Source: Liolophura sinensis (taxonomy: Eukaryota > Mollusca > Polyplacophora > Chitonida > Chitonidae). From it: a DNA stretch of 64,000 nucleotides. A model generated the notes under the pieces. It was not told the DNA's origin. It worked only from the letters and a program-made list of their open reading frames with translations, and made no database searches. The stretch covers positions 13,397,501 to 13,461,500 of the forward strand of contig NC_088303.1 in the NCBI RefSeq assembly GCF_032854445.1. The letters run 5' to 3'. Positions 1,811 through 58,000 of the stretch are shown here, piece after piece. The position numbers and the translations under genes are program-made. Each line of letters opens with the position of its first letter. The first letter of the stretch is position 1.

Positions 1811-4800
1811 GTAAAATGCCACACATATCTTAACCAGTTCGCGGTATTGTATACTGACGTAACCAGCGCAAGTCACCTTAAAGATGGCCGCCAGTATATC
1901 ATATCGCTTGTGCCATCACTGAGCATAACCCCCCCACAAACAATGTGTAAAAAGACGACCTTTCTCTGTATATATATTTAATTTATTCGTTTATTTTATT
2001 GCTGTTTTTCATCGTACTCAAGAATATATCGCTTAAATCAAGGTAAAGTCCGGTGAAAACGACGGCTCTAGATAGAAATTTGCGTATATATTTTCTATGA
2101 AAGTTGTTTAATATTAGAGTCTAAAGTTGAATGATTGGAATCGTACTGATATTGATGTGGGATAGTTAATATATTAACTGCATTAATTGTGATAATACGC
2201 AATTAGTGATTTTCATTTGTCCGTCGTAGTAGTTTTGCTCTTTATACTGTATACCTTTAATTATATAGTAAGTGTGTCTGACTGATTACTTATCAACGAA
2301 GACGTGAAAAACCATTATGAAGTGGGCTAAATTGTTACTTTATTGTACTGTTACTTACCCGTTGACTTTTTTTTTGTCATCAGATTGATTTCGTCTCAAA
2401 GACTTTCAATTTCATCAGCGGTGGTCAGATTCAACAGTCTTTCAAGTTTCTGGATCTGAGAAGTTACGATGTGGATGTAAGTACGTTATGCAAGCTCAGA
2501 TGGTAACGCTGAGAAGTTACGATGTGGATGTAAGTACGTTATGCAAGCTCAGATGGTAACGCTGAGAAGTTACGATGCGGTACAAATACGTGGACTCAGG
2601 ATGTAACTTGAAAGTTTGGGTCTCTGTCAAAGGATTACATGGCGAATTATGCATATAGCTTGTCGGCCATGTAAGAGTAACATTAACAATAGCAGATATA
2701 GCTGCATGTTTCCAATATTACCCCCAAAAGCAGGTTGTGCAAACCCTGAACAGTTATTCACTGGGGACACTTATTAATGTGTGTATGCGAATCTACATGT
2801 GGACACCTATTAACCTTACGCTCAGGTGTGCGGATGCGAATCTGCATGTTGACACCTATTTATCTACACAAAGGTGTGCTGATGCGAATCTACATGTGGA
2901 CACTTATTAACCTACACCCACGTGTGCGTATGCGAATCTACATGTTGACATCTATTTACCTACACACGGGTGTGCTGACGCGAATCTGCATGTGGACACC
3001 TATTAACCGACACTCACGTGTGCAGGTGCGAATCTGCTTGTGGACACCTATTAACCTACACACACATGTGCAGATGTGAATTGTGACATCTGTTAACCTC
3101 CGCAGACGTGCGATAATACGAATCTCTGGACATCTGTTAGCCTCTTCACTCGTGTGCGGAAACGAATCTGTGGACACCTATTAACCTCAGCACACGTGTG
3201 CGGATAGCCCTAGGTGAATAGACGCCCTTCTAAGTTAAGAAGTTCCAGGTGTATGTTATCAATGAACAATTTGTTATTGGCTTACAACTACCAGTTTCCA
3301 TTAAAGATGCTACCCTTTTATAAATTTGCTTTTATACCTTCACGTGCATATGTACTGGTTGACCTGAACTGTGTGGTGTGTTTCTAGGAAGCGATTGCTA
3401 ACGAGCTGGTACTTCGGTTTGAGGACCGCTGCTTTGAGATCAATACGGACAGCACCGAGGAGAAGTACGGTCTGGAAAGACTTTTGTCCACAGTGTTAGA
3501 GTTAAATGATCTTGAGAGGATAGGGGGTGAGTAATCTTTCAGGATCAATACATGTCTTCTCGATTATCCCCCTTTGAAAGACGCACAAATTGTTTAGATG
3601 TATCACAACAAACATATACAATTAATATTTTTTGAACGTGTAAGCATTCGACATTCCTTTTAGAGGTCGCCCACTCCATGTTGTTTGTAACACCCACAAA
3701 GTTCAGACTCTTCCGATGTCGATGCAAAGCTTCAGAAGAGGTTCCATTATTTTTAGCAACTTAAGTTACATAAAGGGTGTTCATAATTGTAAACATTCTC
3801 ATGTTCTGATGTTCTGTTCTAGTGAATCTCAATCCCGCGGGGACAGTTGTCTCCCCTGAACAAATGCTCATCAAAAGGGGAAAGCTGATGAAACGCGGCA
3901 ATACAGCTATTCCTGTCTGGGCGGAGTGAGTAAACATAATAAACAAATAGTGTATATATCGTATGTCTAGACAAAAGAAATATTACAGTCTGAGTATAAT
4001 TGTATTAGTCAAATCTGGCAGTAATATATGAGTGAAACTTGGCATTAAAGCCTGAGTAAAATGAGGTTTTAATGTATGAATTAAATTAAGTATTAAGGTA
4101 TTTGGAAATATTGTAGGAGTGCGCTTTGGCATTACTGTATCACTAATAGTGAGTATTACTTTAAATAAATGTGAGTATTTTATATATAGGTCAAATTTAT
4201 TATTATCATGTCTGAATATATAAACGTAGGTAGGCTTATTGCTGTATGAATAAAAGCGCATGTTAGCGTTGCTACCTGGGTTAATTTGCTTTTGGAGTTT
4301 GAAGGAAATGAGTTGTTGTTTTTTAAGTAAATGTCTGTTCATGGTGCGTGATTTATGAGTATTACTCTCTGTAGACTGTTATCACAGCATCAGCATGCTG
4401 GTACCACACCCGGCACGTCTCCAGGTTAGTAGACCATCACGAAAGATCCGTTATCGCCTCACGGATCATCTGTGTTTGAACTACATACAGATGGGTTAAA
4501 TGGCAGTCGTGCGTTTTGAAGTTGCCGGTACCACATGCGTAAAAATCCCAAAATATGAAATGATTTAGTTTTTATTCTCACTTTCAGACGAATGGTTAAA
4601 ATTCAGACGGGGGAGTTCTGTTTTTACAGAGCTGGAGATGCCGTATGTATACTTAATACCCTTTTTAATATGCGTTCACATGACCAAAAATCAGGAGTTC
4701 AAATATTCCAGTCGTATAAACCAGATCGGGGTTAATGTGATATAGGAAAAAAGAATAAGAAATAGTTGAATAAAAACAAAAGTAGATGAAACCAAATCAA

Positions 4801-7800
4801 CATGTGTTTAATCATTATTTTTGCAAAAGAGAACAATATTTCAACCTGTTAAAACCATACTTAAAACTTAAGAACTGTTATTTCAATAACCCCCATCATG
4901 ATTTCGTTTGATTACCTCCCCCCATCCACCTTCCCCCATTGATATTCTGTAGTGAAAATCGAGTGAAATGGAAGAGCTTTCTAATCTTTGCACCTACGTC
5001 TTTAGTTCTGGCTTTGAGAAACTATAAAAATTCACAGCAAAATCCACTGGGAAATGGATTCTGGACACTAGAGTATATATGATTAATGCAACTCATAAAC
5101 CAAAAGTCTTGCTCTTGTATTTCCGCAGTAACTTATGTAGTAAATTGCACATAAGGTGTTGTACCGTATATGGAGCTACATGGTATCGTTTTATTGCATT
5201 TTCTCCCTGAAATGATCCAATGTTTAGTACGGCTCTTGTAAGTGAGTAAGGATAAATATTCATCAACAGAGGTGAGAAAAAGAAACAAAAAGATGGTATC
5301 ATACCATGCCCTGAGGATGTAAGGATATAACCACTGAAGCATGGTAATCAGTAGATGTGGAAGAAGACAGCGAGTAAAGTCACACTACTCATAGCCATCA
5401 GCATTCCAGTATCTAATTGAGCAACTCTATATCGTGTGTACCTCTTATGAGACGTTCAATAACCGTGAAAGTTTTTGTTCAGGTGGACTAGAAATAACCC
5501 TTCTGAATAAACCAGTTTGTGTTAAACGTTCTTTTATCCTTTTTCCAACCCATTGACCTAAACAATTTTGCGCGACCAATTCTACTGATAGGTAATCATA
5601 TTATGAGTATTAATGTTAGACATAAAGAAAAATTCTGATAATTTTAAGAGAACGTCTGTTGTTTGAATGATGATAGAATGTATTCCGTTATCATAACATA
5701 ACAATATGTCATATTCAACATACATGTATATATCTTGTTAGTCTGATACAATCTTTAGGTTGAATTAATAGAATAGACGTGCTATATTTAACAGAATAAT
5801 CTGCTGGATCAACGTAATACATTCTAACATCACTCAAACAGCAGACTTTCTCTTCAATTTAAAAGATTATATTTTGAGAATACCAGTGATAGTTTTAATT
5901 TACATGTATTCTGTGATAGGCAAAGGTCACTAGTATATATTTGAATACACTCTGTATATAAGACCACTCGCTAGAGCAGTTGCAAATGGGTCTTCTCATC
6001 GAAATTTCTCTAATGTAACAAGGATCCATGAGAATTTAATCCAAATGAGAAAACGGAATTCCATTGTTACACGCAGTTCTATAAACCCTGTACTCGCCAC
6101 AACAGGGTGTTACACGCAGTTCTATAAACCCTGAACTAACCACAACAGGGTGCTACACGCAGTTCTATAAACCCTGTACTAGTCACACCAGGATGTTACG
6201 AACAGTTCTCAGTCCAGTAACTCTGCGAAGGGATTCGAGATTCGTAATGTGGTCTCAAATTTTTCAAGGCCGAGATTTGACACTTTGTGTACTTTCCAAG
6301 TGTATTGCCGACAGGTTGCCATAAACGTTGTGAGATTGTGGGAAGGTAATGCTAAATTCAAGGCCAGAGGAAACGATGGACTGGTTATACAAATGAGAGC
6401 CCCTGACACAAGGATATTCTGGTAAGAGTTAACGACACAAACCAAATGCTTAGTTAACTTTCAAGGCCCATATACACGTTATAATAGGATATATGAACCA
6501 TGTTTATTCCAAATAGCGACATATGTCGATTTCATCCGCTTACACTCAAATAATATTCTGTAATATTCAACAATATATCCTGTAAATATAAGAATATTTG
6601 TGTTGAATTAATAGAATATGTGTGTTATATTTAACAAAATAATCTAGCATTCTAGCATCACTCAGACAACAGTCTTTATGTTAAATTTAACAGATTATTT
6701 TTTAGAGTGTAGGTTTGTTTCTCCTTTATTTTTCGGTAGACACCGTTATAGAAAAATCTCTCTCTTAATTTCCTTCAACAAGCCTAAAAGCAAACATGTG
6801 GTCAATCCTTTCATCATTACATTATGATACAAGTATTACATACCTAGCTGGACGACATAAATATTCTAAGGAGAAATCTGTTTGATTTCAGTTTTCGCGT
6901 CTGCTCGGACGGCCATAAGGATAGCAGCGCCATTAAACAAGAGCGTAATGATTGGCTCAAGGTGAGAAGGGTCCTGATGACCTCATTGATTGGTAATGAA
7001 TATACTAGTAAATTTTCCCTCATAATGGCAACTTAGTTACAAAAATTGACCGTTCTTCTCCTGTAATACATGTGTACTACGTCACCAGTTTGTCCATTAA
7101 TCGTCATCACAAAGGCAGGAATGAACAACACACGAGACAGCTTTGGTCCGAATTACTTTAGTCAAGAATGGTTAACGCGAGTAAATGTTCAGGCAGTACA
7201 TTACAAAATATTTTAATCCTTTTAGTCTAAGATTCAAAGCAAAATATGGCTACACGTCCAGCTACGCTCGCCCACTTTGCTGCCAATTCCAAGTCTTTTT
7301 TTTCTTTTTGTTAACTCTAGGCGTTTAAGAAAGCGTGTATTACCAGGCGAAGTACTCTCAAGCTAACAAAGGATCAGATTCAGAAAGTAAGTAGTCTGTT
7401 TGTGCCACATTTTGGAAGAGCCTTGATGATAATCATATATCTCTGACAGACGAGCATTAAGGAGTCCACTTCAATATTTGCAATGGTCGTGGGTTTGCCC
7501 GGGGCTGTGCCCGGTTTCCTCCCACCATAATGCTGGCCGCCGACGTATAAGTGAAATATTCTTGAGTACGGTGTAAAACACCAATCAAAATAAATAAATA
7601 AATCATTATTTACAAGCGTGGTCTTCACGTAGTTATGAAACAAACTATATCAAGACTTAAATTAGATGAGAGATTGACTTTGACTCCTTTATACAGTACC
7701 AAACAGTTTCAAAAATGTTTATGCTTTTGACTTCCAGTTAAGTTTACGGAGCAACCAAGCGGCAGGTGAACAAACTCCTGCAAGGTAAGTAACTAAAATC

Positions 7801-10800: not shown

Positions 10801-13800
10801 AAAATTATGAGTTGCCATCACATATACAAATCATAATAAAACAATGGCAAGGGGGCAGGCCTCGCAGATTCTTAGTCGACGAGCAAAATCCTGGTACATA
10901 AGTACACTATTAAGGACGACAACATAGAGAGTAAAACCAGAGCAGTGACGACAGTGTGACAGTGACAAATCGTGGCACGCATTATCAGCCAAATCCGGCC
11001 TCTTGTTAGTACAAATCAGTGAGGGTTTTACACCGACGGTTCATGTATATACTTAAAAATGAGTGTGTATTGGCTTATCTGTTCGACACTGCAGTCATCA
11101 GTGACGATTCTGTATCCCTTTACGCATGTCACTGTTAATCTGTCAAGATTGGCTTACCTGTCCGACACTGCAGTCATCAATGACGATTCTGTATCGCTTT
11201 ACGGATGTCCTTGTTAATCTGACAAGATTGGCTCACCTGTCCGACACTGCAGCCATGAATGACGATTCTGTATCCCTTTAAGGATGTCATTGTTAATCCG
11301 TCAAGTCACCATGAAAAAAAAAAGGGAAATTGAAACTAACTCCTCGCAAACATAGTCTGGTGGAATGCTATTAATTGTTGTTCATTCTACAGATTCCAGC
11401 CCACTGTGGAAGATTGTGAAATGTACAATAATTATTCTGGCAACAAATCCAAGCTGGGTGAGGTCGACCAGTTTATGATGGAACTGTGTAAAATCCCAGA
11501 ATTGGAGAACCGATTAGATCTGACGCAACTGCTTTGGGAGTTTCCACATCAGCTCCATTGTTTGGAACCAGTAAGTACTAAAGTTGTAAACTGCCATTTT
11601 CGTGGATGAAGAATCAGGGATTGCACAGTTCATGCACCGTGGTTAAATATAGTTTCCAGGTCATCGTCGTGTTAAAATGATTTCTAATGTTTTGCAAGAT
11701 ATTTTGCTCCCGTCTCCTCACAGAAGAGTTGTAACCTTGCCTAATATGAACTCTATTGTGGTAGCTATGCAGAAGAGCTGGAATAAAAAAAAGTGTGAAA
11801 ACTTCCAGAAAAAAAGAACATAACGCGAAAATGAGAGCTTGTCGGTGGGATTTTTCTTTGCGGTAAGTATTCGAATAAAATATACAACTACCCGTGACAG
11901 TTGTGGAAGCGTGCGTTGCTTTTTACCTCCCGCGTAAAATATGCTTTTTCGACGACTACGACACATTAGAAGCCTTTTGCATTGTAACTCCGGTGACTGT
12001 GCCACTAACATTAGAAAGCGTTTCGCATTATAACTCCCGTGACTGTGCCACTCAAATCAGAGTTACATGTTTGGAAATAGGTTAAATATTCTTTTCTCTT
12101 GTGTAATACACCATATTTTTTTCGTTACTGTTCTCTGTAATACCATTGCCCTATGGCAACAATAAAGAGAGAAGAAGTCGTGTTTAGTTTAGTTAATCCT
12201 GTAATGAGCAACTTTTCCAGCCTAACTGGTAAAATAGTACTCATTCGTTACAAGAGAGCAATAGTCAAGTTAGCTTGGAACCAAATCGCCATTGCGCGGG
12301 AAAACGTACCCCAATAGGCACAAATGTCAGTGTAATGAACATAAGTATATGTGTTTAGTTCACGCTGTCTCCACCTACATCGCTATGATGTACCTCAAAT
12401 GCTGCCGATGTCGCATTAACCATCATTCATTCATCCATAGCTTGTTACATGTAGAAACTTGGAAACCTATATTTAAGCCCATTCCATCGTCTCTTCTCAC
12501 AGACAGTCGAGCAGATGACGCGGACTTGTAACCAGTTGAACACCTCTCAGAAGTTTGCTCGAGTTCTGCAGTACATTCTGTGTCTGGGCAATTATTTGAA
12601 CAGTAGCTCACCCAGCGGACTTGAAGTTAAGGGGTTCCACCTTGCGGCGCTCAATTCAGTGAGTCACCGCCCTAGTCCAACGGCTTATACAGAATAATGG
12701 ACCATATGAAAAGAGTTAAATTAATTACCATTTTCTTGAAAATATATGTACTATATAAAAGGAGTTCAGATTCTGAACATCTTATAAATTTTATACGTTG
12801 AAACAAGTCAGAAGGAAACGTGATGGATACATTTCTGATGTAGTGTGTTACGGTATGTACGTTTACTTATTCCTGGCATGGTCCTTTTTTGAGTGCTCGG
12901 AGCCTGACATCCACGGTGTATTAATAAAACATTAAAGCTGAATTTAACAATAACTTCTCTTAATAAAGCGGTAATCACCTGAATGATTTTGTCACTGTCT
13001 CAGCTGGCGGACACCCGGGGTAAAGACAGGGACTACTCCTTACTACATTACTTGGTGGATCAGCTGGCAGCCGTGGAACCGGAACTGCTCAACTTCCAAA
13101 GAGAAATCCCAGACATTCACAAATGTTCAGAATCCTCCACCAAAGCGCTGGAAGTGGAAATCGAAGGTACATATAAAGTAATATTTCATTTTCGTATATA
13201 TAATTATGATCGATATACAGCGGCACTGTCGTAATATTAGGGGAGTTTCGAGTTGGAACTCAAAGGTAAAAACAGCCCAACTGTATCATGTGACTTGTGA
13301 AAAATGTTTGGCAACCTTTGTTGACATTAAATTAGATGTCATCTGTCTCGTCCTTTTTCCAGAGGCACAAATGACACCTCTTTTCATTAGGAACTTCTCA
13401 AGTTCACACAGGTTCAGATTCACAATTTTCTCTATCATTCCTCTATTCTAAATTACATTTATGACACCTTTCTCAGACACCCATGTTATAGAAAATATGA
13501 TCCAAAATAGTTGCCTGACGTGTTTGACTTTCCACATGACACAGTTGGGCCTTTTCTACCTTCATCGATAAAAGAGTTCGAACTTGAAATTCCCCTATTG
13601 AAATGCTGTTGGAATAGACATTAACAATAACCAAGCAAGCAAGCAATTATATAAGTTTATACAAATACGTATTACCATGTCTTCCATTGTATAAGGTTAA
13701 CTGATTAAAGTAACACTCGTGTTCTACACTTTCAGTGTTAAAAAACCAGCTGACTTTAATTCGAAAGACGATCAGGTCGTTAAGGGCGGGGCTTATACAT

Positions 13801-15596
13801 CCGGCATCTTATGAAGCTCATTTCCTGGATGAAGCCGAGGTGAGTTTTTTTATTTACCGTCAGTCTGCATATATCTCCCTTGCTGGTGAGTATGAATACA
13901 TACATGTACCGTTATAATCCCAGGTGAGTAACGGGATACTTACATGTACCGTTATAATCCCAGGTGAGTAACGGGATACTTACATGTACCATTATAATCC
14001 CAGGTGAGTAGTCTTTCATGCATCACACGAATATTTGAGAAATCTGCCAATCCCATTAAATACGCCAAGACAGCTGGGCAATATGAAAGAGATCACGGCG
14101 TTTGTGTCCAGTATAATATATAACCTTCTGTGAAAAAGTCATGCCAGTGAGCAGAAAGGAAACAAATGTAAACAACAATATTGTTTGTCTTTTTAGAAAT
14201 TTGCCAAACATCACGACAGGCTATTAGAGCAACTACAGGTGCTGCACAACCAGCTCCATCACTCTTATATATCAGTCCTGGTAAGTACTCTAGACTTTAT
14301 ATCTTTATACTATACACTCAGTGTTTGCTGGTAATACAACTATGGTTAAGAGACTTGAAAAAAAAAGACAACACCAGACCAAGTTTATATATGCATCGAT
14401 AAAATACCCTACATAAAGTCTTAAAAGCACACCTTTTTATTTTTGTGATGTTGAAAAACCGATACATTGCATTTGCAATGTAAGCTAAATAGCACACATT
14501 GAGCAAAAGCACTGCCAGGTTGTAACCAATCTGTCATCCGAACCTGTTTTGTCTTTCAGCCATGTGAGTATGGGGTGCGAGTGACGCAACATCGTGTTTT
14601 CAGTTGCTTTAACATGGCATATCCCATGGCCTCATTTATAGTTACCAAGGATTGTATTACATGATACTTTCAGGGTCATATGACCCCTGAAATTTGTCTC
14701 ACATCGAAAGCAGCCTCCATTTTTATGTACTCACATGATATTTCCATAGACGTTGAGTGCTTGAAATATACACAACAACGATCTCACAAGACGCCCACAC
14801 ACGAGTGAAACCTTGTGCCCGGCTCATTTGTTTCTGGATTCTTTGTTGCCCAAACTTAAAGAAGCTGAATCTTTCGATCAAGTGTTGCAGACTCAGGAAT
14901 TATCATTGTGGTTATCCACACACCAGTAAATTTCGAGGATTTTTTTGTTGTCCGAATCAGGAATCTCGTTTTCGACAACAAAGGTTGTCTGTGTGCACTG
15001 GGCTTAAAAAGTGTCAAATTTTCACGATGCTTGATTTTTCATTTGTCAGCACCGCTTTGGTCAACCCATGGAGACCTCGTCTAATCAGCTGTTTACTGCC
15101 ATTTGTGAGTTTATGGAGAAGTTTGAAGCCATAAATCAGGAGAGGAGTGCGAGGCAGCAGGCGGAATCCAATCCACCAATCAGCGTTCACAAAGCATCCG
15201 GAAAAGGTATGCCTATGTGTATTAGCCTCATTTGGTGGGCCCACAACGAGAACACTATAACTTAATATTAAAGGAATTAAACAGCTGCATATGTATAGGA
15301 CTTTAATTAAATATTATGTAATTATTATCACTTTATTCATAGTTGCTAGACCAGATTTACCTGCTTCAGCTATATATTTAGCTATATACAACTGATAAAC
15401 CAGAATTTGCCTCCTTGGTAACCACGTGGAACCTTAAAATTAACGGCGGTCTAGTCATCTTTACCCCACGATCTATACAAACTCTTGATCATACGTCAGC
15501 ATTTGATGGATGTTAATAAAAGCTTCACATTTTTTTTTCTTTCTCATTTCAGCCAAGGTACCCCTCCCACAAAAGAAATCCACAAACCCAAAATGA
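1661..15596 (+). CDS. Formin with PH-like, FH1 and FH2 domains (PHCF-type formin), 5' incomplete
   Basis: Formins nucleate and elongate unbranched actin filaments: FH1 binds profilin-actin and the FH2 dimer caps the barbed end processively. Nineteen exons join in one continuous frame (2646 coding nt, about 881 residues plus TGA at 15594-15596). Order: basic/serine-rich start, a conserved N-terminal segment, a PH-like module starting at LIKRGKLMKRG, a 234-codon exon ending in a PPMPPPPAPPPMP FH1 tract, then FH2 from KLKHIFWKAVPPNQ. FH2 hallmarks are the invariant GNYLN motif and the isoleucine in NLGIFLKGLK, part of the actin-contacting surface. The tail after FH2 is short, ends in a basic KKSTNPK, and no clear DAD was found. 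A PH module upstream of FH1-FH2 matches the metazoan PHCF class known from formin phylogeny; that class name is from memory and no alignment was run. Earlier exons and the start codon lie off the left edge. Confidence 0.85.
2384..2476 (+). CDS. Formin exon: N-terminal conserved segment, part 1
   Basis: This phase 0 exon of 31 codons starts IDFVSKTFNFISGGQ and ends LRSYDVD before GTAAGT. It may be part of a GTPase-binding/FH3-like regulatory region, but it is too short to assign. Its last 19 bases and the donor are tandemly duplicated downstream. Confidence 0.65.
2458..2580 (+). repeat. 53-bp tandem duplication covering a splice donor
   Basis: Units at 2458-2510 and 2511-2563 are identical, with a partial third at 2564-2580. 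Each full unit holds the last 19 bases of the formin exon ending at 2476 plus GTAAGTACG, so the intron carries a second perfect donor 53 bases downstream. Confidence 0.92.
2775..3205. repeat. Minisatellite of ~48-bp units
   Basis: About nine diverged units of the type TGCGAATCTACATGTGGACA followed by CCTATTAACC and a CACGTGTG-like segment. Because 48 is divisible by 3, both strands show long repetitive open frames that are not genes. Confidence 0.88.
3388..3526 (+). CDS. Formin exon: N-terminal conserved segment, part 2
   Basis: The exon enters in phase 0 and leaves in phase 1. It encodes EAIANELVLRFEDRCFEI and then an acidic helix ending LELNDLERIG. Acceptor TTTCTAG and donor GTGAGT are clear. 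Confidence 0.7.
3823..3925 (+). CDS. Formin exon: start of PH-like domain
   Basis: The exon encodes VNLNPAGTVV then MLIKRGKLMKRGNTAIPVWAE. The basic K-RG-L-KRG strand followed by a tryptophan is typical of PH strand beta-1 running into beta-2. It leaves in phase 2 at GCGGA|GTGAGT. Confidence 0.7.
4375..4424 (+). CDS. Formin exon: small PH-region exon
   Basis: This 50-nt candidate exon lies between GTAG and CCAG|GTTAGT. It keeps phase with its neighbours and reads LLSQHQHAGTTPGTSP. That is not a typical PH beta-2/beta-3 strand, so an exon may be missing or this may be a variant loop. Confidence 0.4.
4588..4642 (+). CDS. Formin exon: PH-region exon with two plausible frames
   Basis: Acceptor TTTCAG and donor GTATGT bound 55 nt. 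The phase-consistent frame reads EWLKFRRGSSVFTELEMP. A second open frame reads RMVKIQTGEFCFYRAGDA, which looks more PH-like but breaks phase with both neighbours as I have drawn them. Confidence 0.5.
5615..5885. mobile_element. Foldback MITE, copy 1
   Basis: Shares with 6541-6721 and 16582-16837 the internal core GTTGAATTAATAGAATA.. and the inverted arms (ATGATAGAATGTATTCCGTTAT on the left, TACATTCTAACATCACTCAA on the right). The tips are eroded. Confidence 0.65.
6064..6195. repeat. ~43-bp tandem repeat, three units
   Basis: Units read GTTACACGCAGTTCTATAAA then CCCTGTACT..CCACAACAGG. Confidence 0.9.
6541..6721. mobile_element. Foldback MITE, copy 2
   Basis: Ends are TACACTCAAATAAT and its near inverse ATTTTTTAGAGTGTA. 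The core is related to the other two copies. It is shorter than copy 3, with an internal deletion. Confidence 0.75.
6892..6961 (+). CDS. Formin exon: PH C-terminal strand and helix start
   Basis: The exon encodes FRVCSDGHKDSSAIKQERND then WLK. The pattern FRV.S followed by an acidic/basic helix with E..DWL matches the end of a PH domain, where the tryptophan of the final helix is nearly invariant. It leaves in phase 0 at AAG|GTGAGA. Confidence 0.8.
7321..7386 (+). CDS. Formin exon: end of PH helix
   Basis: This phase 0 exon of 22 codons, AFKKACITRRSTLKLTKDQ and on to IQK, continues the PH C-terminal helix (W..AFKKA) into a linker. The acceptor follows a long T tract. Confidence 0.8.
7481..7603 (+). 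mobile_element. SINE (family A), 5'-truncated
   Basis: Only the 3' body and tail remain: CCGGTTTCCTCCCACCATAA, then TATAAGTGAAATATTCTTGA and an AAATAAAT tail. Confidence 0.88.
7738..7784 (+). CDS. Formin exon: linker
   Basis: This 47-nt exon, LSLRSNQAAGEQTPA, runs from acceptor CTTCCAG to donor CAAG|GTAAGT and leaves in phase 2, matching the next exon. Confidence 0.65.
8363..9065 (+). CDS. Formin exon: acidic linker, FH1 and first residues of FH2
   Basis: This is the largest exon (703 nt). It has a Ser/Thr-rich stretch, an acidic run (SSDDDSGEFEDEEVFYNS), then a proline-rich tract with PVPPVSPPMPPPPAPPPMP, the profilin-binding FH1. It ends with KLKHIFWKAVPPNQ, the FH2 lasso entry with its conserved tryptophan. 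The true 5' edge is the ATGCAG acceptor; codons upstream of it are intron read-through. Confidence 0.92.
9490..9607 (+). CDS. Formin exon: FH2 lasso/linker
   Basis: The exon encodes VEKSIWQHSRPDELRKKLNL and an acidic stretch ending at PNRQLSGTT. It enters in phase 0 and leaves in phase 1. Confidence 0.9.
10279..10444 (+). CDS. Formin exon: FH2 knob
   Basis: The exon contains YNLGIFLKGLKTRGRALI. The isoleucine equivalent to the actin-binding Ile of yeast and mammalian formins is kept. Phases are 1 in, 2 out. Confidence 0.92.
10588..10722. repeat. ~97-bp tandem duplication
   Basis: CATTGGGTGTGTGTACATAT at 10590 recurs with few changes at about 10687, both followed by an AGTACTGT stretch. It lies within a formin intron. 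Confidence 0.6.
11068..11305. repeat. ~80-bp tandem repeat, three units
   Basis: Each unit has GACACTGCAGTCATCAATGA then CGATTCTGTATCCCTTTA and ends GTTAATCTGTCAAGATTGGC. Confidence 0.92.
11393..11570 (+). CDS. Formin exon: FH2 core
   Basis: The exon contains KSKLGEVDQFMMELCKIPEL, the usual FH2 'L...D.F...L..IP' helix, followed by an LDLTQLLWEF helix. It leaves in phase 0. Confidence 0.92.
12503..12658 (+). CDS. Formin exon: FH2 GNYLN motif
   Basis: The exon encodes TVEQMTRTCNQLNTSQKFAR then VLQYILCLGNYLNSSSPSG. GNYLN is the most conserved FH2 signature. The exon is phase 0 at both ends. Confidence 0.95.
13004..13166 (+). CDS. Formin exon: FH2 core
   Basis: The exon encodes LADTRGKDRDYSLLHYLVDQ and a helix ending in EVEIE. 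The 'L.DTR..D...SLLHYLV' stretch is standard FH2 sequence after GNYLN. Confidence 0.94.
13736..13839 (+). CDS. Formin exon: FH2 post/coiled region
   Basis: The exon encodes VLKNQLTLIRKTIRSLRAGL and ends FLDEAE|GTGAGT. Decoy donors lie a little downstream in a tandem repeat. Confidence 0.88.
13885..14012 (+). repeat. 40-bp tandem repeat carrying splice donors
   Basis: Units read ACATGTACCGTTATAATCCC followed by AGGTGAGTAACGGGATACTT. The intron begins at 13840, so three strong CAG|GTGAGTA donors sit about 80-165 bases past the real one. Confidence 0.9.
14197..14280 (+). CDS. Formin exon: FH2 C-terminal helix
   Basis: This 28-codon phase 0 exon, KFAKHHDRLLEQLQVLHNQL and on, is helical and lies between TTTTAG and CTG|GTAAGT. 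Confidence 0.85.
15050..15206 (+). CDS. Formin exon: end of FH2
   Basis: The exon encodes HRFGQPMETSSNQLFTAICE and FMEKFEAINQE, matching the last FH2 helix ('...F...F...F..A..E'). Polar residues follow. It leaves in phase 1. Confidence 0.88.
15553..15596 (+). CDS. Formin last exon
   Basis: Short basic C-terminus AKVPLPQKKSTNPK with stop TGA at 15594-15596. The acceptor follows a long T/C tract. Confidence 0.82.
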
Positions 15597-16142
15597 AATC
15601 AGGATAGAGGCCATGAGATACTCTATGATATACTGAAGACGGTAGATCATTCACTGTGCTAATTTAGGGTGACGTTGTTCAGCGATATTAGTATGCTATT
15701 GATGTGTATGGGTTGGTCATCATTCAGAGATAATCCAGAGGCTACGTTTGGTGATAAAAGGACTGCGACAGTATAATTACAGACAAACTAGATTTTCTTG
15801 TTCTTATTTACATATGCTTCATGTCAAGAGCGTATATGGTGCCAACGCTGTTCCAACCACTGTGATGAATGACACTCCCCAACAACTGAGGAGGAGTGGC
15901 CTTACAAGAACAAAGATGAAATCCGACGGATCAGGGGACGTAACTCCTGCGAATTTTGTACCGATAAAACGCATAACATACAAGTGTTCTCGCAACCAAA
16001 TATTGAAAAATTATCCAGAATGGCTATTATTTATTCACATACACGTATATACCACTGTATGTATATGTTATCTTGTAAGAAACATTAGATTAACTCCCGT
16101 ATACAATACAAGACAATAAACATCATATGTTACCATAATAAA
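15597..16142 (+). other. Formin 3' untranslated region with polyadenylation signals
   Basis: About 520 bases after the stop there are two AATAAA hexamers, at 16115-16120 and 16137-16142. They are the likely 3' end signals of the formin mRNA. The open frame at 15748-16119 inside it has no family resemblance. Confidence 0.5.
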
Positions 16143-16581
16143 TTCGTAATATTTATACCAGTGTAAATAATATGGTTTATCGGGACATGTACACGCCTAC
16201 AAATATGGTCAGCAGATTACATCTGCCATACCTCCTTTGTTGTATTACATCCTGAACTGAAGAATAAATGACGCCGTTTATGCCAAAAGGGCTGGTTCAG
16301 AATTCATAAATTTCTCATTTATATAAAAGTGAAATATGAGGATATATGCGATAAATTCAAAGTCAATCATATTCTAACGGATTCGATCGTGACATCCTAG
16401 CCTCCACAGCCACATTGAGGTATCGTTAGTCTTTTGCGTGCTTTCGTGACCATACTGGTGAAGTAGGTGTAATTTCGTGCATTGCAGCAGTACGAGGCAC
16501 TTGGTACTCTTATCTGTTTTGTCAAGGATTGTCAACAGGTACCTATATAGCTTTAGCCTGGGTGCTCCGGTTTACTCCACC
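16143..16581. other. Intergenic, no gene seen
   Basis: AT-rich DNA between the formin 3' end and the MITE. No coding or repeat structure is supported. Confidence 0.5.
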
Positions 16582-16837: not shown

Positions 16838-16899
16838 CTTGTATAAACCTGCATGACGCCATGTAAGTGAAAAATAAATAGAACAGTGCCATTCACCAA

Positions 16900-17230: not shown

Positions 17231-19381
17231 ATAAAAAAAAATCAATACAAAGTGGACGGTTGGCGACCCCTATAATTATGTGAAATACACGACAGGGTAC
17301 ATACAGTAAATTATCAGTTTTAAAGTTAAAAGCCCACGCTGGCTATGGGAAGTAATGACTCTGTCGGACCTTTCCGTACCTTTGGCCAACGAGGTAGCCT
17401 GTGCCAATGCGGCAGTTATCCTTGGTTCGGGCGGCTCTGTGGCAGGCAGCATTTTGTCAGGTACCCTAAGGATTGTGAAGGAGATATGTGCTTCCACTGG
17501 GTTCTACCCGGTTTCCTCCACCCATAAACCTGACCACAGTTATGGATTGCTACTTGAATACAACGTTGAACAGTTCTTTCACTCAGCTTTATAACAAACC
17601 TGTCATGTAATTGTGGATGGACGAAATCGGGGAAAACCACTGCCATTTGTCGTGACGGCAAACCTAACACAGGGCATACATACGATCGTCCGGATAGATT
17701 TGTGTCGCCACCTTCGGTTTGTAGCCCATCATTGCCGACACCAGTTGTAGCTTCCGGGTCAGGTTGAGCTATCGCTACAGGCCTGTGTTGTCCGAGATTG
17801 TTCTGACGTTAGGTTTGGCAAAAATTTTGTCCGGCGACCACAAATCAACGTCAGAGCTCGCTCAATTTAAAAAAACTTAAAGTAGTTTGATCAAGAGTCA
17901 AAAGCCAAGGTCGTAACAGAGAGATTTATCCCACCAAGCGACCAAAGTAAAAGTAGGGTGTCGGTTTCATTGTTTAAGTTATTAAATGGAAGATGATGCA
18001 GTTTAAATTTCATATAATAAAGCTCACGTGAACTCCTTACAGGGGAAAACAAAATCGTTCAAGAACAAAGCAGTGCAAGACAAATCGTCCAAGAAACTTA
18101 GTGAAATTGTCCACGATAGTCTAATCACTTTGGAATTTAGTATTTATTATGGAATTATTTATTCCAAGGCAAACGTTTAAGACAAACCTGTAAAGATTTA
18201 CCTATATGTGTGACGTCCATACCAATGTGGTGTTTGTATACCCGGTTTACTTAAAACTTACTTAAAACAAAGGGTCGGTCCAACAGTATTTTTGCTTTTG
18301 TGGGTAAGTTGGGCCTGTTATAAGCTTTTATCGAGTCAGATAAATTAAGACTGGTGGAAAAATCTGTCAATAATACGCTACGATCATCCGCACGTTGGCG
18401 GCAGACCTTCTTACGCAAGACCTGAGAGATGTGGCGGATATGAATTCAGCACGTTTTATTTCGTCGTACGTTGTGGGCATCGAGCTTTTCGCTAAAAAGT
18501 TCCAGCATACAAGTATTTCATCGGTCACGTGACGATTTACCAAATATCACGGTCGTCGCTGAATTGGTTTGATCTCTATGCTGCAAGTCTTTAATTATAT
18601 TGTATTCCTGCATTAACTGGGATTCTGCTGTTGGACAAAGCATTCCCCCGAGACCCGGTCCCTTTGCATTGTTTTAATGTTATTTCATGTTAAATGTAAC
18701 AACACAGCATTTTGGGTAATTATAGACCTCTGACGACTATTAAAATACAAGTAACATCGCTGAATTTTTTCTTAAGCCATTGTGTTGGAAGCTTGTTGTT
18801 ACTATTTAAGCATATACATGAACAGTTAGAATAGTGGTAAATCCCCAGGTAAACGGAGATAAGGTCATATCCCACTGTTTACGTGTGACCGTATTGCCAG
18901 TCATCGCTGCTCTGCTATTACTCTCCTTGCTGCATGTAAATCTTTTATTATTTTTACAAAACAGCTGCTAATAAATATACATCATACCAAAGTGGGCTCC
19001 ACTGTATCCACGATACGATATGTATCTTGGACTATACAACTGCCTTTCTTGGACATTTCGCCTTTGGAAGAGTTGGTCATGTTAAACTCCTGGGGCCCGT
19101 TCTGTAAAGCTGTCGCAACGCGGCTTAATGCACCTTTGTCATGGTCACGTATCTCTTTACTGTATGTTGTCATTGAAATTTCGCCAGGCGCATTTTGCGA
19201 CTTTGTAGAACAGGTCAGGGAGGATTTCTGATGGTCGAACTCTAAGGAGTCGAAACTTGTGAAGAAAAATTTGCCGCGTCGGTCTATCTTCATGGACAAA
19301 AAAATTCTTCGGGCGTAAACTAAGTCCAGTATACCCGTATATATCCAACATGTTTGTACTGTTGCGTTCGACATATAACGA
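17231..19381. other. Intergenic, no supported gene
   Basis: The short open frames at 17276-17670 overlap on both strands and resemble no family. The rest is AT-rich with no repeat or exon that I can support. Confidence 0.45.
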
Positions 19382-19646
19382 TTTTTTTTTTTTTTGATTG
19401 GTGTTTTACGCCGTACTCAAGAATATTTCACTTATACGACGGCGGCCAGCATTATGGGTGGGTGGAAACCGGGCAGAGCCCGGTGGAAACCCACGACCAT
19501 CCGCAGGTTGCTGGCCGGAGAGGAAGCAATGGCCGGAGAGGAAGCCAGCATGAGCTGGTCTTGAACTCACAGCGACGGCATTGGTGAGAGGCTTCTGGGT
19601 CACTACGCTGCGCTAGCGCGCTAACCGACTGAGCCACGGAGGCCCC
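19382..19646 (-). mobile_element. SINE (family A), full length, reverse orientation
   Basis: Reading the minus strand: tRNA-like head GGGGCCTCCGTGGCTCAGTC GGTTAGCGCGC (A-box like), B-box like GAGTTCAAGACCAGC, then the conserved body and a tail of A. GACATATAACGA before the tail and GACATATAATGACG after the head look like a target-site duplication. Confidence 0.92.
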
Positions 19647-19681
19647 GACATATAATGACGTTTCGCTATTCGCTTTCACAC

Positions 19682-19940
19682 TTTTATTTATTTATTTATT
19701 TGATTGGTGTTTTACGCCGTACTCAAGAATATTTCACTTACACGACGGCGGCCAGCATTATGGTGGGTGGAAACCGGGCACAGCCCGGGGGAAACCCACC
19801 ACCATCCGTAGGTTGCTGGCAGACCTTCCCACGTACGGCCGAAGAGGAAGCCAGCATGATCTGGACTTGAACTCGCAGCGACCGCATTTGTGAGAGACTC
19901 CTGGGTCATTACGCGGCGCTAGCGAGCTAACCAACTGATT
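19682..19940 (-). mobile_element. SINE (family A), reverse, head slightly truncated
   Basis: It has the same body as its neighbour 36 bases upstream. The direct repeat TTCACACTTTT flanks it, so this was an independent insertion rather than a segmental copy. Confidence 0.9.
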
Positions 19941-34000: not shown

Positions 34001-37000
34001 GTACCAGTTTATGTTTTTCAACAGTGTTTATGGCTGAGTGGTAAATTTGCACTGTGGCGCATTGTGAATCTCAGGCAGATATCTTCAGGGTAGGGTTGTA
34101 CTTCATTATTCATGTTTTAAAATGACCAGTTGCATACTGGGTATTTTTATACAGCTTACTAAAATGCCTGTGTACCAGACCAGTGGGAATCTACTGATTA
34201 CTGCTTGCCCGTTTGAATTCATGTTTTCCACTTAGATTGTATATGTGTCATTTTCTGAGAACTCCAGTCAGCCAGCCAGATTCACAACCCTTCTTTTTCC
34301 AGTTGATAAAGAGAAAAGAGCGCTTAACGGTCACAGAATTGAAGTCAGTGCAAGTCTTGTTGAAATGTTTAAAGTATATATGGAAAAACTTAAAGTAATG
34401 TTTAAAGTACACTTGAGCGATGTTATATACATGTATTTTTATCAGTAATGCTTATTTATAGATTTATAGTACAAATCCCTTGAGGTATGATACATTTGCT
34501 ATTTGACAACTACATGTAGATTTATGTATTGTGATGTGATGACGTCTCATATTATCCCAGCTTCTCAGGTTCCTGTTGTGCGCAACCAAAGCTTTGTTCA
34601 CATAATGGACTGGGTCAAAAGACAGGCCAAGGATGTCTCTGTCCACCAAGGGGTTTTTGATCTTGTTAAGGTACTTAGATGTTTTGTACATTTGTTTGTA
34701 CTGTTTCTCTGCTACACACATTTTGTGTGTTATGGTTTGGTTTAAAACTTGGAGATTAAATGTAATACCCATATGGAATGGTTGTCTTTCCAATTTGCGG
34801 CGAAAGACTCTTACTCTTTCATAATATGCTCTCCTGTCTTCATACATTTTGTGTTTGGACATATTATGCTGGATTATTTATTCCAGTGGTGTTCAGGAAT
34901 TATTATTCTCTGGAATTTTGCACCCATATAACAGTGATGAGGTTTGTTGGTTGAAAAAAACGCAAAAGGCTCCAGATCTCTAAGGCTTAGCAAAACCAGT
35001 GACAGCTGGATTTTAGTGTGTGACCTCATTAGTTAGGGTCTGAAGGCCTCTAATGTGTTCTCTTGTGTAGAGTATAATTGTGTCTGAAGGATGTTTGGTT
35101 TGCTATTCAGCAGAATTTGTCTGTTGTCTGCTGTACAGAATATAATTGTGTCTGGTTTGAAAAATATTTGGCCTGTCCTTCAGCAGAACTGTTTGTTGTG
35201 TGTTGTACAGAGTATAATTTTGTGTGGTCTATGAAATATTTGCTTTGTCTTAAGAGGAATTTGTCTTTCAGCAGAATTTGTTTGTTGTACAGAGTATAAT
35301 TGTGTCTGGTTAGAAAAGTATTTGGCCTGTCCTTCAGCAGAATTTGTCTCTTGTACAGAGTATAGTTTTGTCTGGTTTGAAAAATATTTGGCCTGTCCTT
35401 CAGCAGAATTTGTCTGTTGTCTGTTGTACAGAATATAATTGTGTCTGGTTTGGAAAATATTTGGCCTGTTCTTCAACAGAACTGTTTGTTGTTTGTTGTA
35501 CAGAGTATAATTTTGTGTGGTCTATGAAATATTTGCTTTGTTCTTAAGAGGAATTTGTCTTTTGTTTGTTGTGCAGAGTATAATTGTGTCTGGTCTGACG
35601 GATGTTTGGTCTGCCATACGCTCAGCCTGTGCCTCTCGACTCTCTCCAGTGTGTGCTGAACTTGATCCAGATGACCTGCAAGCTCTCTTTAAGGAGCTGA
35701 CCAAGGTAAGTTCCTTAAATATATTAAAAGCTATCAACATCATCAGAAAAAAAAATACAAAAAGCCTCAGCTGTGATATGCAGTAGATTGTTACCATCGT
35801 AGTTTAACATGTGCTGACGTGGGAGGTACAATCAGCAATCAGTTGGATTAGGACAATTTTGTGGAAACAGGCTATGTTGCCATTTTTGAAATTAACATAT
35901 CAAGCAGAATGTTAGAGATACATGCAGCTTTGTACATATAAGAAGGCAAAAGGCATACTATTAATAGGCAACGTTAGACCTTATCTTGTATGTGTTTTAC
36001 CTTCCATACATGTATCTTATGGGAAAACACAGCAGTACATGTTCATGTAGTACTAAGATCTTATGTTCGACACGCTTCAGTGTCTCGGTCTGTTTTTAAC
36101 CGCACACATTTAGCTGATTCACAGACATTTTCTACAGCACAGTAACCTATGCTAAAAATTCCCATTCTGAACCCAGGGTGTCATTGTGATGAACTTTGAT
36201 TATTATCTGCCATTCATGGCCATGGCTGTATCTCCCATTGCAAACACATGTTTTGTCTGTCGTTTTCTTATTTGCACTCTCAGTCTCTTAATGCTTGAAT
36301 GTTCAGAAAATAGATTGTGGGCACCCATTACAACAGACTGTGAGAAAACTGACCAATCACATGGATTTACTGTTGAACCAATCATTTGAATAGCTCTCCA
36401 TGTCAGAGTGTTAAATGTCTTGGATAGTACAGCCGAACAACAGACTGTGATAAAGTCGGGAATAGTACAGGCTAAAGTGAGCTAACCATATTGATACTAA
36501 TACTTTCTCCAGGATATCCCAGTGTTTGGGTTGAAAAATTCCCCAAAATGTCGAAATGGACAGAATGTTTAGTGTTGCTTGTTCCAGTACTGCGCAAATA
36601 AGATGTAAGAGCTTGTATGTTTTGGAGAAATCCTCGTATAATGGTTTAGCAACGTTTGTGCATCTGTCTCAGATTTGTCAGGATGATGGCAGTTCTTGGC
36701 AGTCTGTGGAAGGAGCTGTGATGGGTGAGTGGGAACGTAATGTGTACATGTCACAAATCTAAAAGACACTCAGAACACAAACCATTGCCACAACTGTTTG
36801 TGCAAATTTCCACAATAGGAACAAAGGGCCAGTACTCTGCATCTCTGTTTATCAGTAGTAAACAGTGGTTCAAAGCATTTCTGGATCTGAATTACACCGT
36901 GGTACAGTGGATTGATCATTAGCCCAAGTCTGTGAACAAAATTAATAAAGTTGTGCAGTAATAAACTGGAATTAAGGAAGAATTTAAAGGCCACATTTAA

Positions 37001-52000: not shown

Positions 52001-55000
52001 ATATTTTATTTTATTTCTTTTGGCCTGAGGTAATTCCAGGGTATCAACACTCAAGTTTACCTCAGTTCATGTATTACTGTACCTGCTATTTATAGAGATA
52101 AGAATAATTACATTTTGATGCAATCATCTGAAATATATCCGTTGGATATACATTTACATGCACAATAATTTCCTAAACCTACTATCAGTTTAATCCTTCA
52201 GAATTCTTATTTTTCTGTGTGAAATAATCGAGATACAAGGCCTGCTGCTTGTACAATAGTGTACCTGTTTTGTTGTATGTTACTTCAGCGATTCTTGTGC
52301 CCAGTCTGCAACTTGGCTAAATGAGGTAGAACTTAATCCAATGACCAGTCTTCTGACCACCATGTTCTATCAGATTACTGAGTGTGTAGTGGATGGCCAG
52401 TGGGAGCTCCGTAGGATGGGCATACAGGTAAGTCTTAGAACTGAACTCATGATGAAGTATTGAATGTAAACCCAACACATACATGTACGTTAAACCCCAA
52501 GCATACATACGTACATGCATGTACAGGTGAGCCTTAGGACTGAACTCTTCAAACTCATAAATGTAGACCCATAACACATACAGATGAGTCATAGGACTGA
52601 ACTCATCAAACTCATAAATGTAGACCCATAACACATACAGATGAGTCATAGGACTGAACTCATCAAACTCATAAATGTAGACCCATAACACATACAGGTG
52701 TGTCATAGGGACTGAACTCATCAAACTTATCAATTTACACCCATAACACATACAGGTGAGTCATAGGACTGAACTCATAAATGTAGACCCATAGCACATA
52801 CAGGTGAGCCTTAGGACTGAACTCATCAAACTCAAAAATGTAGACCCATAACACATACAGATGAATCATAGGACTGAACTCATCAAACTCATAAATGTAG
52901 ACCCATAACACACACAGGTGAGTCATAGGACTGAACTCATAAATGTAGACCCATAGCACATACAGATGAGTCTTAGGACTGAACTCATCAAACTCATAAA
53001 TGTAGACCCATTAACACATACAGGTGAGTCATAGGACTGAACTCATCAAACTTATAAATTTAGACCCATAACACATACAGATGAGTCATAGGACTGAACT
53101 CATCAAACTCATAAATGTAGACCCATAACACATACAGGTGAGTCATAGGACTGAACTCATCAAACTCATAAATGTAGGCTCATAACACATACAGATGAGT
53201 CATAGGAACTGAACTCATCAAACTCATAAATGTAGACTCATAACACATACAGATGAGTCATAGGACTGAACTCATCAAACTCATAAATGTAGACCCATAA
53301 TACATACAGGTGAGTCATAGGACTGAACTCATCAAACTCATAAATGTAGACCCATAACACATACAGATGAGTCATAGGACTGAACTCATCAAACTCATAA
53401 ATGTAGACTCATAACACATACAGATGAGTCATAGGACTTAACTCATCAAACTCATAAATGTAGACCCATAACACATACAGGTGAGTCATAGGACTGAACT
53501 CATCAAACTTATAAATTTACACCCATAACACATACAGATGAGTCATAGGACTGAACTCATCAAACTTATAAATTTACACCCATAACACATACAGGTGAGT
53601 CATAGGACTGAACTCATAAATGTAGACCCATAACACATACAGGTGAGCCTTAGGACTGAACTCATGAACTCATAAATGTAGACCCATTACACATACAGGT
53701 GAGTCATAGGACTGAACTCATCAAACTTATAAATGTAGACCCATAGCACATACAGGTGAGCCTTCGGACTGAACTCATCAAACTCATAATGTAGACCCAT
53801 AACACACACAGATGAGTCATAGGACTGAACTGATAAATGTAGACCCATAACACATACAGGTGAGGCATAGGACTGAACTCAAACTCATAAATGTAGACCC
53901 ATAACACACATGGATGAGATCACCATGAACTTACACCTGTGAATGTAGGCCTATAACACATATACATGGTAGGTCAGTCTTTACTCTCAACTGTTTGTTT
54001 CTGGACCAATACTGACATAATAGATAATTAATTAAATATTCCTCAGTATGGCTTAAAAGGATTAGTGTTCAGATTTCTTATTTATTCATAATTAGCTACA
54101 CGTGTATATATTGCAGGGATAGATATTAGAAGTAAAACCAGCAGGAGAGTTGTCCTGTTGATCCTTTAAAATTACTTGACATTTTTGCAACTCACAGACA
54201 AATGAACTGTTGGCCGATATATTTTATTTATTTATTTGATCGGTGTTTTACGCCGTACTCACGACATTCATACGAAAGGGGATAAACCCACGACCATCCA
54301 CAGGTTACTGGCAGAAGTTGGCTGATATTTGATTAAATGCACTGTGTACTTAGTTTTGACATGTGTTTTAATAACTGACCAGGCAGTTATTTACGGTCAC
54401 TGTAATTTTCACACATGGTGCAATACATCGCTTCCAATCTTCCTTGAAATATCGTCGTGTAGCTGATGTTGTTATTGGATTGGCTTCACCACTTGGATCC
54501 ATTCATTGATTGCTTGATAAACCCAAATTTAATTACGCTGGTCGTTTTGAGCTGTCAGTATTTTTGGTTTCACTGCCAATGACTAGCATATTCCTACAGT
54601 CGCACCCTTGTCCCTGTGAAGTTCATGTCGTGATATGCGCCGTGTGTCTCTTTGCTCATTGAAAAGACACAGGAACGGGGTAATCTATATTTGTAACAAA
54701 ATCGTATACAAGAAGTATACTTAAAAGAGTACATTAATCTGAGTAAAATGGCACTTAAAATCACTACTTAATAAGGCTGGTTTTATGTATTTTTCCCGTC
54801 AACACCCTGGTAGTCTCTGCGGAATTACTTCATACAGGCCCAACCTTTATGAGCTGTGAGAGCTTAGCCATTTAGATCAGGGTTAAAAAAATCTACAAGA
54901 GTGACAACAGCCATATCAAATTTATCCACTAAATGGTTTGCTGTTCTGCATACGGTGGTAAGACAGGTTGTCGAAGGACACTGTAGTTAATTTTTTCGAG

Positions 55001-58000
55001 TTTCCAGACGAATTGGCCCTCAGAAAGGCATGGATTTACAGTACAAGACAGAAGGTTTTTGTTCCCACTAGACACAGCCATGTTCTTCTCTAGCCATTTT
55101 ACACCTGAAATCTATGAGAGGAATACAGTTGAATTTCCACAACGGCACATGTACATAGTAGTTATAAAATACTATTTACTGAACTGAAAACTGGTAAATA
55201 GTAAATGTTTGTACATTAACGCCAACGTCTACATTGTATATGTACATCTATTTATATTGTACATGACTGTATGCCCGTAGGCTTTTTGGAATGCCGACAA
55301 TAACATGTACCGGTAGTTATCATCGTATACAGGTATGAATTTAAAATCCCTTGGGGAATAGAATTATATTTATTGTGAAGTGGACAGAGGGAAAGAATAG
55401 TAAATAAATATTAAGATAAACACACAACATGTATAGTCTAATGTATATATATGCCAGTGCGGTTGGAAATGTCAACAAAGATCAAATTCAGCGTCTGAAA
55501 TATCGGAATCTGAAGTTTGGGAAAGAGATGCCAGTGTCATCAATCAGACATTTTCTTTGGTAACAGTCACAGTTTCCAGCATATATAAGAAGCTCAACTA
55601 TACCTCTAACCTCGTTGCTGAATTTTTTTGTACCATTCTCTGTATTAGGGTACGGGATTAACATATTTGTATTTATTATTTATCTTCTGTCAAAAGGGCA
55701 AACATTAATTTGGTACTGGTTTGGTATTTGTTTTTGTAAAATGTCATGTTTTATTTTGACAGACTTTACCTTGTTTGACGGAGATGATGCGCTGGTATGA
55801 CATGACAGTTGTAGTATGTCTACTATCTTCTCACCTGACAGCCTACCCCCACCCCGCTCACATTTACCTGTATCCTTACCCTCAGAGATTCCCTGCTCCA
55901 TGCCTCCACCCTGCAGCTTCTGTCCAGAAACCCGCCCCAAGCCTGGCAGGTAAGCAAGACATACTGTAGTTGAACCTTATTTATTTTACACCTCCACCTC
56001 ACCCGACCCCACTTATGAATAGTGCATTTAATTTGCTAGATTTCAGAAATTAGCTTAAAAAAAAGAATAGCAAAGACAGATGTAGCCAAGCTTATCTATC
56101 ACTCAGATGCACTATCATGGTTTTATGCAGACAGTTTGTGAATCCGCCCAACCTCACTGTTCAAGGGGCCTTCGTGACAATCAGCAACTGATTTTGGTTG
56201 TATGGCTGTTTTTGCAGCATAACATTCATGGCCTTCAAGGAATATGACTTACATATCTTTAGGTTACATGTAGGAAAGTTTATCAGCAATTTGTGTAAGA
56301 CCAGGGGATTACCCGGGGTAATCTGTTTTTCTCCCTTAAAAAACGGACTGTTGTTGAACAACAGTTGAGTAAAACAACGAAGACTCATGACTAAATTTTT
56401 TACAATTTTTTGTTTTACAGGATCAAGATCGATGTAAAGATGCAATAATAATGATCTGCTGCCATGTGCAGGAAAATCTTGAACGTTATCTCCCTTTGGT
56501 GGAAAAATTGTTAACTAGAGGGAGCTATGATAAGCTGTCTGTGATTGCCTGTTGTGCTCTTATGATGGCTGTGTCAAATTTCCATCTGGCAAAATATCAG
56601 GTAGGTATTATAGCTGGCCACCTTGAGCTTTTCAGCCTGCCTGTGTGTGTTTCATTGTGGTTCTGTGTCAGGGTCTAAGTTTGAGAGGCTTGTTTGTGAA
56701 TCATTGGATTCAAAAGGAGTTGTTTCCTCCACCATAATGCTGGCTGTCGTCGTATAAGTGAAATATTCTTGAGTACAGTATAAAACACCAACCAAATAAA
56801 TGAAATAAATCAAAAGGGGTCGACTCATTTTCAGATGAGTTGATTCCATCAGTATGGCAGGTCTATTGAGCTCGTGCTACAGGAGAAAATCTCTATGTTA
56901 CATAGGAAAGTTTGTCAGTTGCTTGCCAAAAGCTAGTGGTTTACTCCACAAGTGACACTGACCACTGTTGTCATGATTATGTAAGTAAAATACTCAATCA
57001 ACCAAAGCTTTTACTTAAAAACTTTCAGGAGCACAGTGATTGTATTATTTTTACATTTGTAGTTATTTCAAATTGGCTGTTGGCTGTTGGTCACCCAATA
57101 TGCCATTCTATTTCTGACTCACTCTTGCTGATCTCTCTGCCCTGTCTGATTACGCTTCTTGACTTGTTTTATGTTTTCAGAAAACCAGATCATCTCAGTG
57201 TGTACTGGATTATAGCAAGTGGCTGTTCTCTCTGACCCATCGTGTCTTCTTGTGTTTTCAGAAAACTAGAACCGCACAGTGTGCACTGGGACTATTGGAA
57301 GCGCCTATTCTGTCTGACTCACCCTGACAGCAGCTGTAGTGCTGAGCTCATCCTCCACCTCTCTCGGTGTACATTCCAGTCTCCGGAACAGGGATACCTC
57401 AGGTCAGTCCTGCATAAACTTCAACAGAAACCAAAACCACAAGAAACTTAAAAACCATAAACCTTATAGGTATAAGATTATTTCTTGTAAAAGTGTCACA
57501 ATGTTTTCAACATAAGCCTGTGTCCATCTCTTCAGAAATGCCCAGGATACACACACTTCAGATATTATTGTATGGATAATAGATATGAATAGAATCATCT
57601 GAAATTATGTGTGGACTACAGTAATATTAGTAATGGAAGCATTCTTGTGGTGTATTTCAGCTGCTGTTTGGTGCGACCAGAAGGGCCTTTACAGTGTGCC
57701 AAGCAGGTAAATGTGCCTTTGTTTACACAAAGGTGTACCTTCACATACGTACAATTTTATGTATAGAAACAAATCTTCATAAGTGGTACATGGAAACAGA
57801 CGTGTATGTAAAGATATATCTAGATATATAGATACTTCTGAGCCTTCCACCGAAATGCTGTGTTTGTGCGACACACATGGAAAAGTTTGTCAGTAACCTG
57901 CCAAAGGTCTGAGACGTCCCTGTATAAGTGAAAAATTCCTGAGTATAGCAGTTAACAACAATCAGATAATACATACTTATGCATAAGGACATGCCTTTAA

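Follow-up and report, generated by a model that had tools for sequence, protein, structure and literature searches.

In amphioxus, the Adh3 gene and the globin genes BflGb6 and BflGb9 contain "mirages", minisatellite-like tandem repeats whose unit, 10–160 bp in length, spans an exon/intron boundary and which were also proposed as a route of intron gain (PMC3087553). In human genes, variable internal tandem repeats that lie across exon-intron boundaries gave 162 alignments before manual inspection and 27 intron modifications after it (PMC2812944), and in the potato RdRp gene a tandem duplication with splice signals includes a stretch that crosses an intron-exon boundary (PMC4974935, PMC3443670). 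Here we describe junction-spanning arrays of this kind in a chiton, Liolophura sinensis, in a 64,000-nucleotide stretch of contig NC_088303.1 (positions 13,397,501 to 13,461,500 of assembly GCF_032854445.1; hereafter the window) that holds a formin gene and a second, unnamed gene, and in a sample of 29 other genes. The arrays are very probably mirages, that is, ordinary local tandem duplications that overlap an exon edge as tolerated spill-over. They look like structures neither aimed at splice sites nor serving as a route to introns.

As in the amphioxus mirages (PMC3087553), both donors and acceptors are affected in the chiton, the copies are intronic, many but not all of them carry AG or GT, and neighbouring copies are homogenised. 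The unit lay over a real boundary in four of the five window arrays, boundaries of both the 5′ and 3′ kind were involved, and units fell within 10–160 bp (53, about 72, 57 and 81 bp in the junction-spanning window arrays, and 31–140 bp in the clear cases of the sample). The host, however, is a mollusc and not a cephalochordate, and the chiton case comes with a background rate. In amphioxus, haplotypes were shown to differ in array length and the mRNA to be normal, whereas the chiton is known from one haploid assembly. The human repeats are likewise minisatellites straddling exon-intron boundaries, but they occur in recent paralogues in segmental duplications, where transcripts show the repeats kept or spliced and where they can form novel introns (PMC2812944). 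Searches of the open-licence literature turned up no account of duplicated junctions in any chiton, and the name "mirage" for such arrays was found only for amphioxus. The present arrays extend the phenomenon to molluscs and add a background rate: among the sampled genes, a copy was present at about 4% of the junctions, a value no higher than that of nearby intron.

Copies at junctions and in introns

The first-pass annotation of the window reported tandem duplication centred on splice junctions at five places. Each junction was probed with a 40-mer (20 nt of exon and 20 nt of intron) compared against 700 nt on each side, and a copy was defined as a match with at most 11 edits of 40. Copies were found at 4 of the 50 junctions of the 25 predicted exons, and the best copy was on the intron side in all four. 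These were the donors at 2476 and 52427 and the acceptors at 35576 and 57261, with best-copy edits of 0, 10, 5 and 10, respectively, and four of the five proposed duplications were thereby confirmed (arrays 1, 3, 4 and 5; Table 1). The unit of array 1 consists of the final 21 nt of its exon and 32 nt of intron, while array 3 keeps the AG in seven upstream copies of the AG/exon start that match the search string. The donor-like position of array 4 reads CAGGTGAG in 13 units and CAGATGA in 11, so that about half of its copies are without the donor GT. Array 5 was not called by Tandem Repeats Finder (TRF).

The remaining proposal, a duplicated donor at 13885–14012, did not hold. The real donor, at 13839, lies 56 nt upstream of array 2, and its junction has no copy. 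The FH2 match of the formin runs on through 14197–14280 once joined to the exon ending at 13839, which places array 2 inside an intron. The unit of this array does hold a donor-like CCCAGGTGAGT (AG/GTGAGT), but the true exon end reads GCCGAG/gtgagt, and the unit is therefore not a junction copy. Intron points in the window had copies at 17/200 for distances of 30–60 nt, 20/200 for 60–100 nt, 23/200 for 100–200 nt and 32/400 for uniform placement. The junction rate of 4/50 matches these values, so the description of the duplications as centred on splice junctions was not supported. The annotation had also set apart other intronic arrays (at 2.8, 6.1, 11.1 and 33.0 kb) as lying away from junctions, and these indeed cover none of the 50 that were probed.

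The independent sample consisted of 16 myosin and 13 kinesin genes, chosen without regard to repeats through family searches for the myosin head and the kinesin motor; the kinesin genes were selected for a compact spread of family matches. Twenty-five myosin loci (216.5 kb) and 13 kinesin loci (76.8 kb), designated L001–L038, were cut out, and exons were placed by spliced protein-to-genome alignment against leave-one-out profiles, giving homology-based models. An intron was trusted when the exons on either side both exceeded the score thresholds and their profile columns met with a discrepancy of at most four positions. Left out were one myosin group (g15, L024) as a whole, exons below the leave-one-out thresholds, and the spurious end exons and zero-length exons of a first pass. 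This yielded 149 myosin and 63 kinesin introns, 212 in total, or 210 after dropping two beside a duplicated exon pair. That pair, a muscle-type myosin exon present twice in tandem and in similar form in L009 (about 5696–5800 and 6792–6887), was excluded from the junction counts and probably represents alternative (mutually exclusive) exons.

A nearby copy was found at 15 of the 420 sample junctions (nine donors and six acceptors), and 12 of the 29 genes had at least one copied junction. Inside exons the rate was 7/386 at −45 nt, 6/414 at −30 nt and 11/420 at −15 nt, although the exon-interior value shifted with the random draw (2/140, 3/142, 0/61 and 6/203). On the intron side it was 18/420 at +15, 24/420 at +30, 27/418 at +45, 31/414 at +60 and 29/402 at +80 nt, and deeper in the intron it reached 39/386 at +100, 42/358 at +130, 49/312 at +160 and 48/272 at +200 nt. 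The copy rate thus climbs smoothly from exon to deep intron and does not peak at the junction. The ratio of the junction rate to that at 45 and 60 nt was 0.51 (95% interval 0.34–0.72, gene-block bootstrap), and when the reach was widened to 1,500 nt the counts were 16/420 for junctions vs. 29/418 for intron points. In the myosin genes alone, donors gave 7/146 and acceptors 5/146, with 23/292 and 19/292 at the intron points of 30–60 nt, and in the kinesin genes alone 3/126 junctions had a copy vs. 18/366 at 30–60 nt. Shuffled junction 40-mers from the myosin sample had a copy in only 1 of 292 cases, which indicates that the junction duplications are not chance matches.

The genes of this chiton are minisatellite-rich. 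Arrays with a period of 9 or more made up 18.9% of the bases in the myosin regions (0.5–54% by region) and 20.4% in the kinesin regions, compared with 6.4% of the window, and they covered 23.6% of the 196,720 bases of trusted introns. The published repeat table for Liolophura japonica assigns 0.08% to "other (simple repeat, microsatellite, RNA)" (PMC11068029), and minisatellites seem to be under-reported there. In one myosin region, a piece from the interior of a coding exon, VPELVMDQLRYT, recurs downstream with a step of 124 nt (L019, about 4811–4986, after the exon at 14413–14563 of L018/L019 joined), showing that array units can bear coding sequence away from a junction.

Origin of the arrays and their decoy sites

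Under tolerated spill-over, the birth or expansion of a minisatellite starting just inside an exon would give a unit made up of the end of the exon, its splice site and a stretch of intron. A duplication lying fully within a coding exon would be purged by selection, and one within an intron or over a single junction could persist. The exon would remain intact next to the outermost copy (the first for a donor, the last for an acceptor), the remaining copies would become intron, and junction-overlapping arrays would survive since they leave the edge of the exon unharmed. Three parts of this account are inferred: the use of the exon-proximal site in splicing, an origin of the arrays by slippage or unequal exchange, and selection as the cause of the low copy rate in exons. 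The first-pass annotation had offered, as a fallback, that junctions tolerate duplication since splicing can skip the copies, and of its three readings this is the best supported.

Several observations weigh against this reading or soften the evidence for it. The best copy was on the intron side in 15/15 sample hits (with two hits of the duplicated exon pair excluded), but the side is partly built in, as gene models that follow homology settle on the exon edge that is intact. Introns rich in arrays tend to be long ones, which makes uniform intron points (99/840 with a copy; junction-to-uniform ratio 0.30, 95% interval 0.18–0.46 by the same bootstrap) overstate the background, and the control at 45–60 nt is consequently the trusted one. 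The junctions of the sample are predicted by homology, and those of the window by a splice-site and coding score. Finally, among 104 arrays touching the 212 trusted introns, 12 crossed a junction (at least 8 nt on each side), compared with an expectation of 6.6 from edge density (P 0.039) or 8.1 from placement (P 0.09), under a null in which the start of an array may fall at any point of the intron or reach into the exon by at most one period, and whose result depends on the overhang allowed. The corresponding P values were 0.042 and 0.113 for periods of 20 or more and 0.031 and 0.0925 for periods of 30 or more. For the myosin part alone, 9 of 76 arrays crossed vs. 4.0–4.2 expected (P about 0.02). 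These counts are compatible with a junction preference of up to roughly twofold.

Such an excess is what would be seen if junctions were hotspots at which tandem duplication preferentially arises, for example through R-loops or AGGT microhomology. The crossing arrays also favour donors over acceptors (nine vs. three), and AGGT, with 13 occurrences in 2,919 bases of array units and 364 in 103,819 bases of non-array intron, is slightly more frequent in the units. The strong donor motif AGGT[AG]AG, however, was found 0 times in the same unit bases vs. 7 times in the non-array bases, and the copy rate by offset shows no maximum at 0. The first-pass annotation had named in advance the test that would refute it, namely whether arrays are over-represented at up to about 30 bases from exon edges, and on the 29-gene sample the outcome was a refutation, with 17 array edges within 30 nt vs. 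16.4 expected (P 0.47). What is left of a process centred on junctions is the weak possible excess of crossing arrays, and we regard a hotspot as unlikely.

Present-day intron gain, either by duplication of AGGT-bearing exon sequence (the Rogers model) or by mirage copies turning into new exons (the amphioxus globin model), is a very unlikely explanation. Junction arrays would be the starting material for both models, and the potato duplication did produce an intron (PMC4974935), a development of which there is no sign in 146 chiton myosin introns. In these introns, the donor and acceptor flanks were not copies of each other as AGGT duplication would leave them: flanks of the same intron scored a mean of 9.27/36 vs. 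9.20 for shuffled flanks, the best score was 16 vs. 19, and edit distances did not differ (closest pair 14 vs. 13). Six of 10 mirage introns were without a paralogue at the same position in the sample, yet so were 69 of the 146 introns overall; four of 10 shared their position with a paralogue, as did 77 of the 146. The window arrays adjoin existing junctions, and the junction rate, being no higher than that of nearby intron, also counts against the arrays as traces of intron creation. The proposal in the first-pass annotation that they are by-products or a present-day form of that process was accordingly not supported.

The copies carry many decoy splice sites. GT or AG was intact in 214 of 257 copies (13 sample and four window cases), and in several arrays decoy scores equal or exceed that of the real site. 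In one myosin gene, 12/12 decoy donors were intact, 11 of them at the score of the real site. This preservation could suggest that the arrays are purposeful, with repeated splice sites giving alternative splicing or securing exon recognition. Pooled ungapped identity was 0.915 (386/422) at the dinucleotide vs. 0.857 (3,979/4,642) in the flanks, but this measure mixes related copies, is dominated by few arrays and favours central bases. It gave no overall sign of decoys being weeded out, and two many-copy arrays (28 and 19 copies) showed the opposite, with the dinucleotide less conserved than the flanks. The nearest intact decoy kept the frame in 3 of 12 cases, as by chance, and the loss of GT in array 4 likewise speaks against a purpose, which is very improbable on these counts.

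The arrays are almost certainly neither introners, mobile introns with copies at many loci, nor an artefact of assembly: in a search of 609,464,459 bases on 632 contigs, which skips very common words, each of the five window arrays matched a single genome place, its own, and copies within arrays diverge (75–97% matches in four of the TRF arrays at issue), unlike assembly stutter. A pattern search with an invented repeat of donor strings, a made-up query, returned no match and carries no weight here.

With tolerated spill-over as the preferred origin, it is quite possible, and we put it forward tentatively, that natural arrays for splice-site competition are numerous in chiton genes, each a row of donors or acceptors, sometimes dozens of them, that are almost identical and locally score as high as the real site or above it, and from which the spliceosome reliably picks the copy beside the intact exon. 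In that case, splice choice would be decided by exon definition or position, and not by local site sequence, and each array would be a ready-made test of that choice with graded copy number. Since the decoys are intact, the choice among equal sites is directly testable by ordinary RNA-seq. In a kinesin intron in L036, the acceptor at oriented position 4994 is preceded by 34 copies of its region; 29 of these are AG-intact, some scoring as well as the real site or better, and this array is a good candidate for a splice-choice experiment.

Genes and other features of the window

Window exons were predicted from a simple splice-site and coding score; of 33 candidates, 25 were retained by eye and 8 were dropped. 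Gene 1 is a formin, with Pfam matches to FH2 in three open reading frames and across the joined exons at 13004–14280. Gene 2, at about 32–59 kb, appears to be multi-exon and coding by the same score. Family searches gave it no Pfam match that passed the cut-off, structure-sequence searches gave no relative in the PDB, and it was left unnamed.

Table 1. Tandem arrays and adjoining predicted exons in the window (TRF, Tandem Repeats Finder).
Feature	Position	Strand	Basis
Array 1: 53-bp unit, 2.3 copies, 100% matches; spans donor 2476/2477	2456..2577	+	TRF, junction 40-mer
Array 2: 40-bp unit, 2.9 copies, entirely intronic	13896..14010	+	TRF, sequence inspection, junction test
Array 3: about 72-bp unit, 6.8 copies; spans acceptor 35576/35577	35106..35598	+	TRF, junction 40-mer
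Array 4, degenerate first copies, spanning donor 52427/52428	52418..52521	+	Sequence inspection, junction 40-mer
Array 4 proper: 57-bp unit, 25 copies	52522..53908	+	TRF, junction test
Array 5: two-copy degenerate duplication, offset 81; spans acceptor 57261/57262	57167..57328 (limits by eye)	+	Junction 40-mer
Predicted formin (gene 1) exon, 3′ end duplicated	2384..2476	+	Splice-site and coding score; no Pfam hit of its own
Formin FH2 exon, donor 13839/13840 not duplicated	13736..13839	+	Exon score, junction-copy test, FH2 match
Predicted gene 2 exon, 5′ end duplicated	35577..35705	+	Splice-site and coding score; no Pfam or PDB match
Predicted gene 2 exon, donor duplicated	52289..52427	+	Splice-site and coding score
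Predicted gene 2 exon, 5′ end duplicated	57262..57402	+	Splice-site and coding score

Apart from the arrays, the window contains a dispersed element, a frame of which recurs on both strands, at 7380–7649 (−), 19324–19587 (+), 19633–19893 (+) and 24918–25172 (+). It is probably a fragment of a transposable element.

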